This document shows positions 16,944 to 33,477 of a DNA stretch of 35,606 bases, piece after piece. Each line of letters opens with the position of its first letter. The stretch's first letter is position 1. Source of the DNA: a bacterium (lineage in GTDB: Bacteria; Myxococcota_A; UBA9160; UBA6930); NCBI GenBank assembly GCA_024228115.1, contig JAAETT010000242.1:1-35606 (forward strand), in the 5' to 3' direction. The notes under the pieces are model-generated. The model worked only from the letters and a program-made list of their open reading frames with translations, had not been told where the DNA came from and searched no databases. A program made the translations under genes and the position numbers.

Positions 16944-17588
16944 CTACGCGACGCCCAGCAACTTCCTCGCGAGATCCACGCCGTCCTTCGCCTGCGCTCC
17001 CCAACCGTCGGCGCCTTCTCCGTCCGCCCACTTCTGGGACGTGACGGCGCCGCCGACGATCACCGGGTACTTGTCGCGTACGTCCATTTCCTTCAGGAGA
17101 CCGAGGAGCTCGGTGAACTTTTCCATCGCGGGAGCGAAGACGACCGAGACGGCGATCATGTCCGCGCCGGAATTCTCGGCGGCCTCGTAGAAATCCCAGG
17201 GCGCGTTCTTCTCGCCCATGTCGACGACCTCGAAGCCTCCGATCGAGAGCAGCGTACCCACCAGGTTCTTCCCGATGTTGTGCTGGCTGAGCATCGTGCC
17301 GAGGACGATCTTCTTGCCGGTCTTCTGCCCTCCGCCCTTGGGCAACGCCTCTTCGATCAGCGGGATGCAGGCCTTGGCGCAGACACCGGCGCGCACCAGG
17401 TCGAGCACGATCGCCTGCTTGGCCGCGAAGCGGTTGCCGACGTCGTTGAGCCCGTTCATCACTCCTTGCTCGAGGATGTCCATGGGGTTCAGGCCGGCGT
17501 CCAGCAGCTCGCGGGTCATCGCCTCGGCCTCGTCGGTCTTCGTCTGACTCACCAGCTCTCGTAGGTCTTCGATCGTGGACATCTTCAT
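16944..17588 (-). CDS. Corrinoid (cobalamin-binding) methyltransferase protein, MtmC/MttC-like
   Basis: The 214-residue protein has the two-domain layout of methyl-carrying corrinoid proteins: an N-terminal four-helix cap (residues 5-85, with VMNGLNDVGNRFAAKQAIV) and a Rossmann-like B12 domain. The axial-ligand motif is divergent. GTMLSQHNIGKNLVG (98-112) keeps the histidine (103), IGKN and downstream glycines, but the aspartate of DxHxxG is serine and the loop is one residue shorter than the usual GTVxGDxHDIGKN. Later B12-domain features, including VSVVFAPAM and VIVGGAVTSQ, are present. Its start lies 11 bp downstream of the stop of the MtmB homologue. It should shuttle the methyl group from that enzyme. 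Confidence 0.9.
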   Translation of the reverse strand: MKMSTIEDLRELVSQTKTDEAEAMTRELLDAGLNPMDILEQGVMNGLNDVGNRFAAKQAIVLDLVRAGVCAKACIPLIEEALPKGGGQKTGKKIVLGTMLSQHNIGKNLVGTLLSIGGFEVVDMGEKNAPWDFYEAAENSGADMIAVSVVFAPAMEKFTELLGLLKEMDVRDKYPVIVGGAVTSQKWADGEGADGWGAQAKDGVDLARKLLGVA

Positions 17589-17599
17589 GTTTCTCCTGC

Positions 17600-18955
17600 T
17601 CAGTGGGTCCAGGTCGGGTAGTCGAGGCCCAGATCCTGGAAGATCCGCGTGAACTTCCGATAGTGCTCGACCAGCTCGGGCGCGGGGTTCAGGGTCTTCG
17701 GGTCGTAGAGCTTGCTGAAGTGCATCGGGGACGGATCCGGGCTTTTCTCTGCTGCATTGATCCTCTTGAGCAGCTCGACCCCCTCCTTCGGCGACAGCCC
17801 GGCGGCGGCCCGCGCCATCTCACCGGCCCAGCGAGATTCGAACCCGGTCGAGCCACCCGCCAACCAGAGGCCTTCCATGCCCGAGATGGACCCGCCGATG
17901 CACGCTGCCGCGGTCGCGTACCAGGACGTATCCGAAAGCGCCCCGGCCGGGTTCCCCATACTGCCAAAGGAGAGCCACGGCAGCTTCAGGTTCCGATCGG
18001 CTGCGAGCGCGGCGGCCGTGTTGCAGCAACTGATGTCGTTGCCGATGTAGGTGCCGTGCACCGAGACCGACATGGCCTGGGTGAGCGCGCCGCCGGAATA
18101 GGCCAGCATGCCCAGCGTGTGGGCGATGATCTCCATCGCGCCTTGCTCAGGCCCGGTGAGATAGGCGTAGAGCGCAGGCGAGCAGCTCATCCAGGGCTCG
18201 ATGCCGTGCTGCTCGGCGAAGAACGCGAGGTTGAGCCGGTCGTAATCGATCCGCATGTCCTGGATGATCTGGACGGGCAGCGTGCAGTTGCGCCTGTTGT
18301 AGAGCCCTGATCCGAAGGCGCTCATCAAAGTGAGTGGGGTGGTCGCGCTCATCGGGATGCCCAGGAAGAGGCCAGGCTTTCCCGCCCATGTCGCCGCGTC
18401 GTTGATGATCCGGGCCTCTGTCAGGCACACCAGCGTCTGCGACGGTGAGTCTGCGATGTTCTTGAAGTCGCCGACGGCGTAGAGGGGGATCGGGATCACG
18501 CCGTCGCAGGTAGGCTCCTGCATGACGGTCAGGGCGTAGTTGCGGTAAAGCTCGGTGTCCGTCGTCAGCGCACCGGCCGGGAAGAAGGTGTAGAGGCGTT
18601 TCTCGTCGCCGGGCGATCTGGGCGTGAGCGTGATCTCCTGCCGGTCGAAGCCGAGGGTGATCTCGTGCCGCGCCGTGGCGATCACCCCCTCGATCTCGTC
18701 CTCGGTGTACTTGACGATGCGTCGTGTGTTCTTGCAGTAGAGGCCGACCTCGAGCAGGAGTTCCTTTCCGGCCTGGAAGACCGCGTCCGCCATGTCGGGG
18801 TCGATCATCGCGGGCTCGTCGGGATCGAACTCGAGCTTGTACTTCGCCTGCAGGTCGGCGAGCACGTTGGGGAAGAACTCTGTCTCGAACTTGTCTTCCG
18901 CCATGAGCGGACCCGTGGTGGTGCGTTGAATGGTCTCCCACAGAAGCTTGCCCAT
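17600..18955 (-). CDS. MtmB-family (monomethylamine methyltransferase-like) protein without pyrrolysine
   Basis: The 451-residue protein is close to the 458 residues of archaeal MtmB and aligns from its start. KELLLEVGLYCKNTRRIVKY followed by TEDEIEGVI (64-92) corresponds to the MtmB block EMLLECGIYCTDTHRIVKYTE. EMARAAAGLSPKEGVELL matches the late EVARATAG block. In MtmB, in-frame UAG encodes pyrrolysine in AGRPGMGV-Pyl-GPE; here the segment is AGKPGLFLGIP (191-201), with glycine 199 at that position and no in-frame TAG. This is therefore a non-pyrrolysine member, comparable to MtgB-type members of the separate MttB family. It probably demethylates a different N-methyl or other methylated compound. 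The ATG at 18955 follows GGAGGGACC. It is the third gene of the TetR-MtrA/ThyA-MtmB-corrinoid operon. Confidence 0.88.
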   Translation of the reverse strand: MGKLLWETIQRTTTGPLMAEDKFETEFFPNVLADLQAKYKLEFDPDEPAMIDPDMADAVFQAGKELLLEVGLYCKNTRRIVKYTEDEIEGVIATARHEITLGFDRQEITLTPRSPGDEKRLYTFFPAGALTTDTELYRNYALTVMQEPTCDGVIPIPLYAVGDFKNIADSPSQTLVCLTEARIINDAATWAGKPGLFLGIPMSATTPLTLMSAFGSGLYNRRNCTLPVQIIQDMRIDYDRLNLAFFAEQHGIEPWMSCSPALYAYLTGPEQGAMEIIAHTLGMLAYSGGALTQAMSVSVHGTYIGNDISCCNTAAALAADRNLKLPWLSFGSMGNPAGALSDTSWYATAAACIGGSISGMEGLWLAGGSTGFESRWAGEMARAAAGLSPKEGVELLKRINAAEKSPDPSPMHFSKLYDPKTLNPAPELVEHYRKFTRIFQDLGLDYPTWTH

Positions 18956-19029
18956 GGTCCCTCCTCTCGGATGTGGCGCGCAGCAAGGGCACGCAGCCCG
19001 TATATGTCGATACGTCTTGGTGAAGGCGC

Positions 19030-20466
19030 TCAGCCCTGCAGATAACACTCGCGTTCTTGCATGGCGCGTAGCAGCGATGCGCACTCCTGGCCCACGTACC
19101 GCATGTGCTGCGGCAGCAGCCACGGCATGGCGTCAATGATGTACCAGGAGAGGTCGATGGGGCTGTCGAACGCGTCTTCCCAGAAGATCGTGCCGGCGTC
19201 GTGGTCGAGCAGCATGCCCCGGGCCTGTCCGCCGTCATTGCCGAAGAGGAAGACCCCCGAGTGGTCCACCTGAAGCGGCAGCGGCCGCCGGAACGACTCG
19301 GCTAGCACGCGTTCCGCGCGCTGCCAATCGCGCTCGTAGAGGTGCGCGGCGTGCACGATGAAGGTGGCCGCGCCCGGCTCGAGCTCGAGCCGCTTCGCGA
19401 CGTCATGCTGCAGGCGGATCAACGCCATCGCCTCCAGCGGCCAGTCGCTGTAGACATCGGCGCTGCGCAACACGAAGGAGCCGTAGAGGCTCTGGTCGAC
19501 CACATTGAAGGTGGCGGAGATCGCGTTGGGCGCGAAAGTTGAATTCACCAGGTCACCCGGCTCGTGGATCACAATGGTGGCGGACTGCGCATCGAGCGAT
19601 TGTTTCAGACGGTCGCAGACGATCTCGATCTGATCCCGTCCCTCACGCGCGCGCAACCGCCCACCGTAATCGTTGCGGGCGACGTCATCCGAAGAACCCG
19701 GGGCGTCGAAGCGCTCGTAGTAGCGCTCGAAGTCCTCGGCGCCGAAATCGAAGAAGGAGGGAAAGTCCTCCGGCTGCGCGACGTCCACCTCGAGATCCTC
19801 CGCGATGACCGGCAGGCCCACCGTCACGACGACGTTCAGGGCCTCGGCCAGCCGCTCGCCCTCGGCCGTCTGCTTCTCGCCCCCGATCCGCAAGCAGAGA
19901 TTGAGGAGCTGGAGCCAGCTGTCGCCCAGGTCATTGGCGTAGAGCGGGAACGAGGTCCTTCGCGAGAGGAACACCTTCCGGCTCGGGATCTCCGGGTCGG
20001 GGAGCAGCTGCGGCTTCCTCTCCGGCGCCAGAAGCGGGAGCCCCTGGATCCCCTCGCCCAGGCCGGGCAGCGATCGGCCGCGCCAGTCCAGCAGCTTCAC
20101 GTCGCGCCGCAGCGTATCCACCGCATCCGCGTCGATCTCCTCGCAGAGCCGCCCTCGACCGCCCGCGATGGCACCTTCGGCGTCGAGCCCGTCCTGCCAG
20201 AGCGCCAGCAACGCCTCTCCCGCGATCCTGAGATCGTCGCCGCAGAGGACGAGATGGCGAATGTTGGGATGCAGGTGGAGCCCTCGCAGCAGCCACTCCA
20301 GGTCCGATCGGGATTCCAGTGGCGCGACGAACGCGACTCGCTGCTCGTCGAGCGCCTGGAGCATCGGGGCGCGGTCCGCGAATGCGCCGCAGAGGACGAG
20401 GTCGCCTGCCTCGACGTTGGCGAGCTCGAGCTTCTTCAGATGATCCGACTGCCAGGTATGTACCAT
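19030..20466 (-). CDS. MtrA-like (DUF4346) / thymidylate-synthase-like fusion protein
   Basis: The protein has 478 residues. Residues 20-130 resemble MtrA of tetrahydromethanopterin S-methyltransferase and DUF4346: LVLCGAF, VAPLESRSDLEWLLRGLHLH, PNIRHLVLCGDD, GEALLALWQDGLD, DTLRRDVKLLDWRG. The MtrA axial histidine motif GHxxGQ appears as RIAGE, without histidine. Residues 205-385 look like thymidylate synthase: NDYGGRL, LRSADVYSDWPLEAM (the QRSxDxxLG block) and HAAHLYERD (the HxY block). The catalytic PC motif is replaced by APNAISATFNV (312-322), so no cysteine nucleophile is present. The ATG at 20466 follows CGGAGAATCGAA. The inferred role is transfer of a methyl group between corrinoid and a folate held by the ThyA-like domain. 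Confidence 0.78.
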   Translation of the reverse strand: MVHTWQSDHLKKLELANVEAGDLVLCGAFADRAPMLQALDEQRVAFVAPLESRSDLEWLLRGLHLHPNIRHLVLCGDDLRIAGEALLALWQDGLDAEGAIAGGRGRLCEEIDADAVDTLRRDVKLLDWRGRSLPGLGEGIQGLPLLAPERKPQLLPDPEIPSRKVFLSRRTSFPLYANDLGDSWLQLLNLCLRIGGEKQTAEGERLAEALNVVVTVGLPVIAEDLEVDVAQPEDFPSFFDFGAEDFERYYERFDAPGSSDDVARNDYGGRLRAREGRDQIEIVCDRLKQSLDAQSATIVIHEPGDLVNSTFAPNAISATFNVVDQSLYGSFVLRSADVYSDWPLEAMALIRLQHDVAKRLELEPGAATFIVHAAHLYERDWQRAERVLAESFRRPLPLQVDHSGVFLFGNDGGQARGMLLDHDAGTIFWEDAFDSPIDLSWYIIDAMPWLLPQHMRYVGQECASLLRAMQERECYLQG

Positions 20467-29883: not shown

Positions 29884-30162
29884 GTGAGTGAAGCTGAGTT
29901 GAATCTCCAGGATTACAAGGAAATCGAGGAGCTCGCCGAGCGAACTCGAGTCATCGACCGTCGCACGGCCCTGAAGATGGGCGCTGCCGCCATCGTGGCC
30001 GCGCCCGTGCTGGCGTCCACGATCGTGCCGCGCCGGGCTCTGGGCCAGGTCTGCTCGGCGCCGCGTAAGAAGAGGAAGAGGGCGACCAGGAAGAAGGCGA
30101 CCAGGAAGAGGGCGACCAGGAAGAGGGCGACCAGGAAGAGGGCGACCAGGAAGAAGGTATAA
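29884..30162 (+). CDS. Small Tat-like leader protein with RKRAT repeats, candidate modification substrate
   Basis: The 92-residue protein starts at a GTG (SEAELNLQDYKEIEELAERT follows), with CAGGAG eight bases upstream. A charged N-terminal segment is followed by DRRTALKMGAAAIVAAPVLA, which resembles a twin-arginine signal (RRxxLK) or the hydrophobic leader of peptides in PqqD/HprK-like clusters, and then RRALGQVCSAP. The last third is five RK(R/K)AT units ending RKKV: 15-bp repeats rich in Arg, Lys and Thr. It is the first gene of the cluster with PqqD-like, kinase-like and arginine-methyltransferase-like genes, 28 bp upstream of the PqqD-like gene. The inferred role is the substrate of that cluster. 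A DNA- or polyanion-binding tail is the alternative. Confidence 0.65.
   Translation: MSEAELNLQDYKEIEELAERTRVIDRRTALKMGAAAIVAAPVLASTIVPRRALGQVCSAPRKKRKRATRKKATRKRATRKRATRKRATRKKV
30073..30156 (+). repeat. 15-bp tandem repeat encoding RKRAT
   Basis: Units of AGGAAGAGGGCGACC occur five times in tandem (30073-30147) with one G-to-A variant, followed by a partial unit. Near-identical DNA units suggest recent slippage and possible length variation between strains. Confidence 0.85.
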
Positions 30163-30190
30163 CCGTACCCTAGCGGGCGCTGGATCTTCG

Positions 30191-30481
30191 ATGTCGGTGG
30201 ACACGGTCGATACGAACAAGGTCTACCGGTTGGCCGGCCGCCTGATGTTGAAGCCCGACGGGGACGTGACGCTCGCGTTCGATCCCCAGACGTTGGCCGT
30301 TCATCAGCTCAACGCCACCCTGGCCGCGGTTGCGGAGCGTCTCGATGGCGAGCGATCCACGGAGAGCGTCGTGTTGGACTGCTCGGAGGCTTGGGGCCTC
30401 GACGTTGGTGCAGCGTCGAGGGAGGTCTACCGGTCGCTGCAAATCCTTCTGGCCGAGAGTTTGATCGAAGTCTGCGAGTGA
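30191..30481 (+). CDS. PqqD-like peptide-recognition protein
   Basis: The 96-residue protein has the PqqD/RRE fold pattern: short strands (LMLKPDGDVTLAFDPQ), the LNATLAAVAERLDGERS block (PqqD LNxTAxxIxxxxDG) and two helices ending SLQILLAESLIEV. PqqD-type domains bind the leader of a ribosomally made peptide and present it to modification enzymes. The ATG at 30191 lies 28 bp after the small protein's stop, and the next gene starts 4 bp after this one, so it is in the same operon. A similar domain is fused to the methyltransferase at 31292. The PqqD plus HprK-related pair is a recognised combination in polysaccharide and peptide clusters. Confidence 0.8.
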   Translation: MSVDTVDTNKVYRLAGRLMLKPDGDVTLAFDPQTLAVHQLNATLAAVAERLDGERSTESVVLDCSEAWGLDVGAASREVYRSLQILLAESLIEVCE

Positions 30482-30485
30482 GCCG

Positions 30486-31319
30486 GTGCGCGCTCTGAAG
30501 CTGAGTTTCTGCGGGGCGCGGGTCGAACTGAAGACCGATTGTGCTCCCCTGTTCACGGCACTGGCGCATCTCTACCGGCCATTCCTGGAAGCCGAAATCC
30601 CGGCTCAGGCAACGGAGATTTCAGCGGCGCCTCAGGCATGCCGCGCCTGGCTCGAGGGCGAGCTCCATAGCTTTGGATCGGTTGGAGACGCGGTATACGA
30701 GCTGGACCAGCTCATCGAGCCGCGCCTCCTCGCGCATACCTCTTCCCAGCTCCGAGTGCATGCCGCCGCAGTCGAGAGCGCGACCCATACGATTCTGCTG
30801 GTCGGGCCATCCGGCTCGGGCAAGACGACGTTGGCGATGGAACTCGTCCGGAGAGGCATGCGGTACCTCAGCGACGAGTTCGCCATCGTGGATCCACGAG
30901 CCCGAACTCTCCAACCCTTCCCCAGGGCGGCGACCCGCAAAGCGGAGGGGCCAACCCCGCCCGGCCCGAGAATTGGCTTCTTGGATGGCTGGGGCTTCCG
31001 CGACTACGTGCTCCCCGACCTTCGAGCCGATCTAGCAACGCGACCGCTTGGGTCGCGTTGGATTCTGTTTCCCACCCATCGCAAGGAATGCGTTCCGACG
31101 GCCGAGATCCTCGAGCCTGGCGAGTGTTGTGCGCGCTTCCTGCCCTCCATCTTCGATTTCGAGGGAGCCGAGCAGAAGCGCTGGCCCGCCCTCGCAAACC
31201 TCGTGGCGGGCTCCCGCGCTTGTTCCCTTGACTTCCAGGACGCCGCAGCGGATCTCGACCTGGCTCTCGAATTGTTGGGAAACGACGAAGCTTGGACGAC
31301 TACTACGCAAAGATCCTGA
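30486..31319 (+). CDS. HprK-related P-loop kinase
   Basis: The 277-residue protein contains the HPr-kinase core without a full HprK N-domain. Key motifs are VHAAAVE (91-97), the P-loop GPSGSGKTT (107-115) and LSDEFAIVD (128-136), the Walker-B/catalytic region. HprK proteins phosphorylate a serine in HPr; HprK-related kinases next to PqqD-like genes are presumed to phosphorylate another, unknown target. The start is a GTG at 30486. The gene end overlaps the next gene by 28 bases in a different frame. In this cluster the candidate target is the small Thr-rich repeat protein, by inference. Confidence 0.82.
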   Translation: MRALKLSFCGARVELKTDCAPLFTALAHLYRPFLEAEIPAQATEISAAPQACRAWLEGELHSFGSVGDAVYELDQLIEPRLLAHTSSQLRVHAAAVESATHTILLVGPSGSGKTTLAMELVRRGMRYLSDEFAIVDPRARTLQPFPRAATRKAEGPTPPGPRIGFLDGWGFRDYVLPDLRADLATRPLGSRWILFPTHRKECVPTAEILEPGECCARFLPSIFDFEGAEQKRWPALANLVAGSRACSLDFQDAAADLDLALELLGNDEAWTTTTQRS

Positions 31320-32425
31320 CCGACGACGCCCGCTTGCGCGTATTCGAGCGCGCGATCGCGAAGGCGGTACGCCCCGACGACGTGGTTCTCGACCTGGGCT
31401 GCGGGATCGGTACGTACGCCTTCTATGCCGCCCGTGCGGGGGCGTGCCGGGTTCACGCCGTCGACCTCCATCCAATCGCAATGCTCGGGCGGAGTCTGGC
31501 CCGTGACAATGGGCTCCAGGTGGAGTTCACCCATGGCGACGCGCTAGGCCTGGAGCTTCCCGAGCCGGTGACCCTCGTGATTTGCGAGGAGTTCCTGGCC
31601 ACCCTGTTGGAGGGGCCGGCACGAGAGCTGCTCGATGACGCACGAGCTCGGCTCCTGGCCGAGGGGGCCCGCATCATCCCCGCACGAGGTCGCCTCTGGG
31701 CCGCGCCGCTTTCCAGCGCAGACGCCCGCGGCAAGATCCTGCCCGCCCAGCTCCTCGGGCCACGGGACGATGGGCTCGATCTAGGGCCTCTCGTCGAGAT
31801 GCGGCTCAATGATCTGCACCAGATCCACGAGGAAGCGGACGCCCTGCTGCTCGCGCCGCCCGTGGTGGTTCTCGATCATGACTTCGCGGAGTCGATTCCC
31901 ACCCGCTGGGAGTGCGATCAGACAGTCGAGCTGAATGCTTCCGGATCGCTTGACGGTCTTTGCATGTGGATGGAGCTCCAGCTCGACGACGAGAACTCGT
32001 ACTCGAATGCGCCGGGCGACGCGGCGATCTGGGGCCAGCTCTTGTTCCTCGTACCAGAGCGCTGGGAGGCTGGGGCAGGCGAGTGCCTGCGTTTCCGGGT
32101 GCAGTTCCAGGCCCACGGGATGGACGGTTTCTGGAAGTGGAATCTCGAACTCGGCGGGCCCGACGCGAAGCCGCGGCTGAAGCATACGGGCAACACGTTT
32201 GCTTCGACGCCAATGAGCGCCTCGATGCTCGAGAACTACAAGCCGGACCGGCCAATCCGTCTGACCCGGCGTGCGGAAGAGGAAGCCCTCGTGCTCTCGT
32301 TGGTCGACGGCCAGCGCACGGCTGATGACATCGCTGCTGAGTTCATGCGGCGGATGAACGTGACCGACCACGATGAGGCGTTGCGCCGGGTCTTCCAGCA
32401 CCTCGAGGATCGCCGCCGCTCGTGA
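31292..32425 (+). CDS. PRMT-like methyltransferase fused to a C-terminal PqqD-like domain
   Basis: The 377-residue protein starts at a TTG (31292) and gives DDYYAKILTDDARLRVFERA, the N-terminal helix pattern of protein arginine methyltransferases (MLxDxxRxxxYxxAI). SAM motif I is LDLGCGIG (33-40) with AARAGACRVHAVD after it; CEEFLATLLEG (98-108) takes the place of the SEWMGxxLxxE double-E loop. The THWxQ loop appears as AIWGQLLFLVP (245-255), followed by a beta-barrel-like RFRVQFQAHG. Residues 308-372 (ALVLSLVDGQRTADDIAAEF) form a PqqD-like winged-helix domain. This combines a leader-binding module with a putative arginine methyltransferase, next to an Arg-rich repeat protein. PRMT activity is inferred. 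Confidence 0.75.
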   Translation: MDDYYAKILTDDARLRVFERAIAKAVRPDDVVLDLGCGIGTYAFYAARAGACRVHAVDLHPIAMLGRSLARDNGLQVEFTHGDALGLELPEPVTLVICEEFLATLLEGPARELLDDARARLLAEGARIIPARGRLWAAPLSSADARGKILPAQLLGPRDDGLDLGPLVEMRLNDLHQIHEEADALLLAPPVVVLDHDFAESIPTRWECDQTVELNASGSLDGLCMWMELQLDDENSYSNAPGDAAIWGQLLFLVPERWEAGAGECLRFRVQFQAHGMDGFWKWNLELGGPDAKPRLKHTGNTFASTPMSASMLENYKPDRPIRLTRRAEEEALVLSLVDGQRTADDIAAEFMRRMNVTDHDEALRRVFQHLEDRRRS

Positions 32426-33477
32426 GCCGTGCCGCCGAAACCCTGGTGCGTTCCCTCGTCGCCGGGGGGGCGCCGGCTCTGCCTGCAGCGGCCGATTGGC
32501 CGGAGGTTCACGAGATCCTGCAGAGCCACCGGCTCGGCGCCTGGGCGTGGTCCAAGCTGGCCAGTGCAGCTGGCGGCGACGAGATCCCGTTCCACGTCCG
32601 AACCGCCCTGTACGCCGAGGAGTGGCATGTCGCCGAGACCAATCGGCGATTCGCCCGCGAGACCTCTACCTTGCTAGCCGCCTTCCGGGAACGCGACGTG
32701 AATCCGATCGTGATGAAGGGGATGGCGTTGCTGGCCCTCGTCTACCGCGATGTCGGCGCGCGCCCGATGGACGACGTGGATCTTCTGATCACCGCGGAAG
32801 AGCGTCCGCGGGCCCAGGCACTGCTGGCGGAACTTGGCTTCGAGCAGGCGGTGGGGATCGGCGACGCCGACGAGTACTTCGGTCCGGCGGGTCTCGTCCT
32901 CGATCTTCACCACCGCTTCCGGCTCCACGGGGGGCGCGATCTCGCTGCGCTGACGATCGACGCAGCAGCGCCCCTGCTCGGTACGGATTCGATCCGCGTC
33001 TTCTCCCCCGAGGCCATGGTTGCCCACCTGGTGCGGCATCTGGTCGGGCACCGGCGCTCGGCCGGCATCCTGCTCGCCTGGGTGCTCGACATCGCATTGG
33101 CCCTGGATACCTGGCACGATCGCCTGGACATGGCCGCGGTCGAGACCCTCCTGCCGCCGGGGCCATCGAGAACGGCCCTTCCGCTGGTGATCGGATTCTG
33201 CGTGCACAGGCTGGGGGTTCGCATGCCCAAGGGCAGCGGAGAGCCGCACGACGTCTGGAGCTTCGATCAGATCGTGCGAGCCCGGCGGCGCGCGATGTGG
33301 AACCTTCGCTCACCTCGCGGCTGGGCCGCGCTGGGCGCTGCGTGGCTGGGAAGATCCGGTTCTCGCGATCGTCCGCGTCTGCGGGCGAAGGACCTGGCAT
33401 TGGCTCCGTTCGACATCCTGCGCGAGTCCATACGACACAGGTCAGGCGCCGCGAGTTCTTCGAGGAAGAAGATCTAG
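32422..33477 (+). CDS. Nucleotidyltransferase family protein (NTP_transf_5-like)
   Basis: The 351-residue protein carries the nucleotidyltransferase pattern VMKGMALLALVYRDVGARPM (97-116) followed by DDVDLLI (117-123), where the acidic residues bind metal. A helical region with LDLHHRFRLHGG and a basic C-terminus follow. Such proteins are frequent beside PqqD and HprK-related genes, but no substrate is established. The GTG start at 32422 overlaps the methyltransferase stop (GTGA), so translation is coupled. It is the last gene of the tight cluster; 195 bp follow before the sulfatase-like gene. Confidence 0.78.
   Translation: MSRAAETLVRSLVAGGAPALPAAADWPEVHEILQSHRLGAWAWSKLASAAGGDEIPFHVRTALYAEEWHVAETNRRFARETSTLLAAFRERDVNPIVMKGMALLALVYRDVGARPMDDVDLLITAEERPRAQALLAELGFEQAVGIGDADEYFGPAGLVLDLHHRFRLHGGRDLAALTIDAAAPLLGTDSIRVFSPEAMVAHLVRHLVGHRRSAGILLAWVLDIALALDTWHDRLDMAAVETLLPPGPSRTALPLVIGFCVHRLGVRMPKGSGEPHDVWSFDQIVRARRRAMWNLRSPRGWAALGAAWLGRSGSRDRPRLRAKDLALAPFDILRESIRHRSGAASSSRKKI

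Follow-up and report, generated by a model that had tools for sequence, protein, structure and literature searches.

A compact gene cluster of candidate RiPP type with a methyltransferase of predicted PRMT fold in a Myxococcota genome

Precedents for peptide tailoring by kinases and nucleotidyltransferases come from the lasso peptides: paeninodin and pseudomycoidin are phosphorylated or phosphoglycosylated products, and their clusters encode a PqqD-type chaperone, an HPr-kinase homologue (HprK) and a nucleotidyltransferase as the tailoring set (PMC8498205). In the HPr-rel-A system (TIGR04352/TIGR04353), an HprK-related kinase likewise stands beside a PqqD-family protein. Arginine methyltransferases have been described for clusters which do not produce ribosomally synthesized and post-translationally modified peptides (RiPPs), an example being SznE of the streptozotocin cluster (PMC12637814). 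The locus reported here consists of five genes, P0001 to P0005 (29884-33477), on contig JAAETT010000242.1 (C242), one of the 700 contigs of a 6.4 Mb draft genome; the whole contig, 35,606 nucleotides long, forms the analysed window. The cluster shares the tailoring set of the paeninodin and pseudomycoidin clusters and, as in the case of SznE, a putative arginine methyltransferase has been recruited to a bacterial biosynthetic cluster. In contrast to both lasso clusters, it has neither a B2 protease nor an AsnB-type cyclase, adds an enzyme of the protein arginine methyltransferase (PRMT) type, and carries a 92-residue polybasic protein resembling substrates of twin-arginine translocation (Tat) in place of a lasso precursor. 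It is best read as a RiPP-type tailoring cluster whose general kind is known and in which both the methyltransferase and the putative substrate are unusual.

Five packed open reading frames had been proposed at this locus, and all are present there on the plus strand. They are co-directional and intact, have a coding-like composition and are tightly spaced, from a 28-base overlap (start of P0004 on the end of P0003) to a 28-base gap (between P0001 and P0002); P0005 overlaps P0004 by 4 bases. The family matches agree with the predicted PqqD-like, HprK-related and nucleotidyltransferase identities. P0005 matches NTP_transf_5 (PF14907, here NTP5) with an E-value of 6.6e-41 (141 bits, cut-off 31.2). 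The best NCBIfam models for P0003 and P0002 are those of the HPr-rel-A system, but both proteins lie far below the equivalog cut-offs: P0003 matches TIGR04352 (HprK-related A) at 1e-20 with 73.9 bits against 200, P0002 matches TIGR04353 (HPr-rel-A PqqD) at 0.002 with 19 bits against 35. For the PqqD family (PF05402), P0002 falls just short of the cut-off (1.6e-4, 22.3 bits against 23.4); its size, position and neighbours are those found in other PqqD/HprK clusters. The catalytic motifs are kept in P0003 (Walker A, His/Asp) and P0005 (KG...DVD), and His92, Lys113 and Asp130 of P0003 do not vary across 12 HprKs from peptide clusters.

A PRMT-like gene occurs, at E <= 1e-25, in 86 of the 379 genomes of the phylum; some 45 neighbourhoods of such genes were inspected, and most of the genes do not adjoin peptide genes. 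Seven other clusters join a PRMT-like gene with HprK: L043, L045, L050, L132, L133, L134 and L150/L057. PqqD, HprK, NTP5 and PRMT stand together in L132 and L133 (lasso type) and in L150/L057 (radical S-adenosylmethionine (SAM) type); the lasso-type clusters L043, L045 and L050 combine PRMT and HprK with AsnB and usually PqqD, and L134, also of lasso type, combines them with PqqD. The six lasso-type clusters differ from the window cluster in having a lasso-type precursor and, mostly, AsnB, and the PRMT site is altered to SDLRG in L043, L045, L050, L132 and L134. Since the same set recurs in lasso-type and radical SAM clusters of other Myxococcota, the window cluster is recognised as a RiPP-type tailoring set. 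The PRMT-like gene is a minority component, as none was flagged in 20 loci fetched through HprK. In a phylogenetic tree, the enzymes of L043, L045, L132 and L134 are firmly grouped, those of L133/L232 and of L150 fall elsewhere, and P0004 is unplaced. The scatter of L133, L232 and L150 away from the lasso clade suggests that PRMT-like enzymes were likely recruited several times. A paper uniting a lasso peptide, PqqD/HprK and an arginine methyltransferase was not found in the open-access literature. Two PRMT-like genes lie in tandem in L133, and the enzymes at L133 8232-9374 and L232 607-1812 have an additional N-terminal region of about 100 residues. Membrane-like proteins sharing a (V/I)SDDD(Y/F)AR motif, perhaps glycosyltransferases, are encoded near peptide clusters or PRMT-like genes (L045 1093-2439, L134 8749-10095, L213 9046-10353 and L232 1824-3143).

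The methyltransferase P0004 has a family match of 5.8e-12, and sequence comparison places PRMT6 (9.5e-13), PRMT9 and PRMT7 first among its solved relatives. An AlphaFold2 model built with five related sequences reached a mean predicted local distance difference test score (pLDDT) of 82. All 50 of its 50 best fold matches in the Protein Data Bank (PDB) are PRMTs, with E-values down to 4e-26 (PRMT6, 4.1e-26) and template modelling (TM) scores by target of 0.72-0.85. The predicted PRMT fold, a SAM-binding Rossmann domain followed by a beta-barrel, is therefore solid, in line with the PRMT fold originally proposed for this gene product. With the class I PRMTs (PRMT1/2/6/8 and CARM1) P0004 shares the whole-chain fold, SAM motif I (VLDLGCGIG), the first Glu of the double-E loop, and Trp and Gln of the Thr-His-Trp (THW) loop. 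It differs from them in the remainder of both loops, described below, in an Asp for Glu after strand 2 and in an additional three-helix piece at the C-terminus.

This piece had been taken for a PqqD-like, leader-binding domain within the methyltransferase. The first half of that description holds at the level of a weak sequence match (LVDGQRTADDIAAEF; Pfam E-value 0.17, 0.002 with a targeted profile), the second is doubtful: the predicted models of residues 326-376 contain three helices and no beta strands, and the most probable fold matches, lasso B1 proteins, have non-significant E-values above 2. In PqqD-type domains the leader is bound along the beta strands; for this reason the predicted piece is at most PqqD-like and possibly unable to bind a leader. 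Its assignment as a proper RiPP recognition element (RRE) is not supported.

With about even chances, in our estimate, the five genes form a compact RiPP-type cluster in which P0001 is the substrate of PRMT-type methylation, phosphorylation and nucleotidyl transfer, followed by Tat export. Substrate identity, residue specificity, order of steps and export would be as follows. P0002 would present P0001 to the enzymes, and P0004 would methylate side chains of the polybasic tail, most likely the arginines in the repeated R-K-R. P0003 would phosphorylate serine or threonine, possibly the repeated threonine; by analogy with the known kinases, threonine phosphorylation by this cluster is possible. 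P0005 would then put a sugar or nucleotide group onto the phosphate, as in the pseudomycoidin pathway, before the modified polycation leaves by the Tat route. The features on which this proposal draws are collected in Table 1.

Table 1. Genes and sequence features of the PqqD/HprK/PRMT cluster in the window
Feature	Position	Strand	Basis or remark
P0001, small protein, 92 aa	29884..30162	+	GTG start; proposed substrate: acidic N-terminal part, Tat-like segment, polybasic tail
Tat-like segment RRTALKMGAAAIVAAPVLASTIVPRRALG, P0001 residues 26-54	29959..30045	+	TAT_signal_seq match below the cut-off; resembles segments in L206, L218, L270, L272, L274
Polybasic tail, P0001 residues 61-92	30064..30159	+	tandem array 30073-30154, unit AGGAAGAGGGCGACC = RKRAT
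P0002, PqqD-like peptide chaperone (RRE), 96 aa	30191..30481	+	PF05402 1.6e-4, TIGR04353 0.002
P0003, HprK-like kinase, 277 aa	30486..31319	+	TIGR04352 1e-20; conserved His92/Walker A/Asp130
Walker A of P0003, GPSGSGKT	30804..30827	+	sequence, alignment with HprKs
P0004, PRMT-type methyltransferase, 377 aa	31292..32425	+	TTG start; PRMT6 match, AlphaFold2 model, fold search
Double-E loop equivalent of P0004, EEFLATLLEG, residues 99-108	31586..31615	+	alignment: first Glu (E99) in place
THW-loop equivalent of P0004, AIWGQ, residues 245-249	32024..32038	+	Trp and Gln kept
C-terminal three-helix piece of P0004, residues 326-376	32267..32419	+	partly PqqD-like (DGQRTADDIA)
P0005, NTP_transf_5 nucleotidyltransferase, 351 aa	32422..33477	+	PF14907 6.6e-41; KG...DVD motif

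Several results weigh against this proposal, some of them concerning the enzyme and others the putative substrate. The canonical double-E loop has two Glu nine residues apart, whereas the second Glu of P0004 comes one position early; the THW histidine is lost (A-I-W-G-Q), and the PRMT_C domain (PF22528) scores 15.3 bits, under the cut-off of 27. As the catalytic loops are non-canonical, arginine specificity cannot be read from the sequence. P0004 forms a long, unplaced branch in the tree, on account of which its assignment to a PRMT subclade failed, and a scan of 84,980 species genomes with short patterns, by which distant relatives would be missed, gave no close relative; a six-row alignment offered no segment of sufficient conservation for searching, and a search with a two-row alignment returned five loci, none of them beside HprK. 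The lasso-type precursors add to these objections. Their cores, with the start inferred from the lasso penultimate-Thr rule, are GTSNKIGEGGNTMNM in L045, GTSNKAGEAGNTMNM in L134 and GTGEMFPDFSGGPAGAMAAPM in L132; none contains Arg, and that of L132 is also devoid of Lys. Met is the last residue of the core in L043, L045, L132 and L134 alike. In the SDLRG motif of the lasso-cluster enzymes Glu is replaced by Asp and the second Glu is missing, and the THW loop is lost as well. Because relatives with such altered sites serve cores without Arg, a PRMT-like enzyme in a peptide cluster need not have an arginine target. The same evidence, together with the lost THW histidine of P0004 and a P0001 tail that holds nearly as many Lys as Arg, favours a reading in which P0004 acts in a peptide system on a group other than arginine: Lys, a carboxylate, a position in the backbone, or a phosphate that the kinase has added. 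We regard this as somewhat unlikely, since P0004 has retained the first Glu and, in the THW loop, W-G-Q, and with them more of the canonical site than its lasso-cluster relatives, falls outside the lasso clade and is encoded beside an Arg-rich protein. Moreover, its relative in the radical SAM cluster L150 has canonical loops, and a single Arg is present in the likely core (SGRIS) of the candidate precursor from that cluster (L057). Arginine methylation by the window cluster is a reasonable hypothesis rather than a finding, with chances a little short of even.

The predicted small protein with RKRAT repeats was recovered as P0001. An AGGAG site lies seven bases ahead of its start codon, and the reading frame appears to be coding, as the G+C content at the three codon positions of its non-repeat part (0.73/0.45/0.79) agrees with that of the neighbouring genes. 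The tail DNA repeats a 15-base unit 5.5 times in tandem with 97% matches, and a chance origin was rejected, the number of two-unit matches expected in shuffled sequence being 0. Residues 56-92 comprise 11 Arg, 10 Lys and 5 Thr, with a charge of about +21. Outside the tail, to which all strong matches are confined, a search of 148 related genomes gave no homologue of the N-terminal part, and conservation therefore cannot link P0001 to the enzymes. The tail type itself is not unique: (ATRKK)n proteins occur across the class in unrelated places, one of them just upstream of rpoZ in the same genome. With such proteins widespread in the class, a tail of this composition is a local habit and by itself no evidence for a PRMT. 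The original prediction expected an RKRAT protein beside homologues of the methyltransferase as well; this was not the case, no Arg-repeat protein being present at any other PRMT/HprK locus examined, and the tail type appears in the stand-alone (ATRKK)n proteins instead. Three of the five P0001 units read ATRKR. The codons differ from those of the (ATRKK)n gene, and derivation of the tail from that gene by recent duplication was rejected on this ground. The stand-alone proteins, such as L071 1677-2069 (G000:C484) and its relatives among L233-L259, are nearly pure ATRKK repeats and perhaps bind the nucleoid or polyanions.

These observations, and the lack of a YxxP-type leader motif in P0001, would also fit a P0001 that is not the substrate, namely a separate exported or DNA/polyanion-binding polycation located upstream by chance, with the true substrate encoded elsewhere. 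This is clearly unlikely, given that P0001 is encoded on the strand of the PqqD gene and only 28 bases ahead of it, that no other small called gene of the cluster has precursor features, that the codon differences speak against recent copying of the tail, and that Tat-like proteins are tied to PqqD/HprK at other loci, including by fusion.

The Tat features of P0001 were judged by eye (RRTALK, an uncharged core, ALG-Q); its score for TIGR01409 (TAT_signal_seq), 14.8 bits, is below the cut-off of 16.7. TatC is encoded in the same genome. In L218, a 76-residue Tat-like Cys/Pro-rich protein is followed in one operon by a radical SAM enzyme, PqqD and HprK. At L206 5107-5595, beside an HprK-like kinase, one protein combines a PqqD domain with a Tat-like segment and a Cys-rich tail, a fusion which likely makes it chaperone and substrate in a single chain. 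Fusions in which a PqqD-like domain is joined through a Tat-like segment to a long, charged tail of low complexity were found at L268 2833-4095, L270 5130-5831, L271 5769-7106, L272 5555-6373 and L274 5048-5716. Next to or near each of them lies a RimK-type ATP-grasp enzyme, fused to a 2-oxoglutarate-Fe(II) (2OG-Fe(II)) oxygenase domain in four of the five and alone in L270; the arrangement looks like an undescribed tail-modification system. P0001 and P0002 look like a split version of these fusions. Of the small genes called in the loci, 268 in all, 7 passed a simple Tat filter, three of the seven being beside or in PqqD/HprK clusters, a figure which is only indicative as the sample of loci is biased. 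No relevant paper on PqqD and twin-arginine export was found in the open-access literature. A further-reaching possibility, speculative and fairly improbable, is a "histone-tail-like" secretion: the Arg/Lys/Thr tail would be arginine-methylated, phosphorylated and decorated in the cytoplasm under PqqD guidance and exported through Tat, and the system would belong to a broader class of PqqD-guided Tat proteins with modified charged tails, in which other members would use the oxygenase/ATP-grasp enzymes.

Between the flanking genes for an alpha/beta hydrolase (28398) and a sulfatase (33685), no B2 protease, AsnB-like cyclase or lasso precursor is encoded, and the identification of the locus as a lasso cluster was rejected on the absence of B2 and C proteins. 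No radical SAM enzyme or AsnB adjoins it, whereas one or the other is present at nearly all comparable PRMT + HprK loci. A search of the four genomes of the same genus recovered neither the cluster nor either flanking gene, and an empty site could therefore not be shown. It is accessory, as it was not seen in these genomes and the scan of public species genomes, within its sensitivity, turned up no close relative. The lack of an adjoining core enzyme and the distribution in the genus would suit a remnant of a lasso or radical SAM cluster, in which only the tailoring genes were left. We consider such a remnant very doubtful: the five frames are intact, coding-like and tightly spaced, the Tat-like precursor type is unlike lasso precursors, so that a lasso origin would require a precursor swap, and in a draft of 700 contigs the core enzyme could be elsewhere.

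Elsewhere in the window (16944-20466), an MtmB-type monomethylamine methyltransferase with an open frame and no in-frame stop, a corrinoid protein and a protein with thymidylate-synthase, pterin-binding and MtrA-like matches form a corrinoid methyl-transfer cluster.

If arginine is methylated, P0004 would be the first enzyme of PRMT type, as far as found in the open-access literature, to act in a RiPP-like pathway, and guanidine methylation would join the known tailoring chemistry. If it is not, the PRMT-like enzymes of the lasso clusters, some with arginine-free cores, would represent a PRMT-fold set with an altered target. The link of PqqD to Tat-like charged-tail proteins suggests, in addition, a route in which modification takes place ahead of Tat export.

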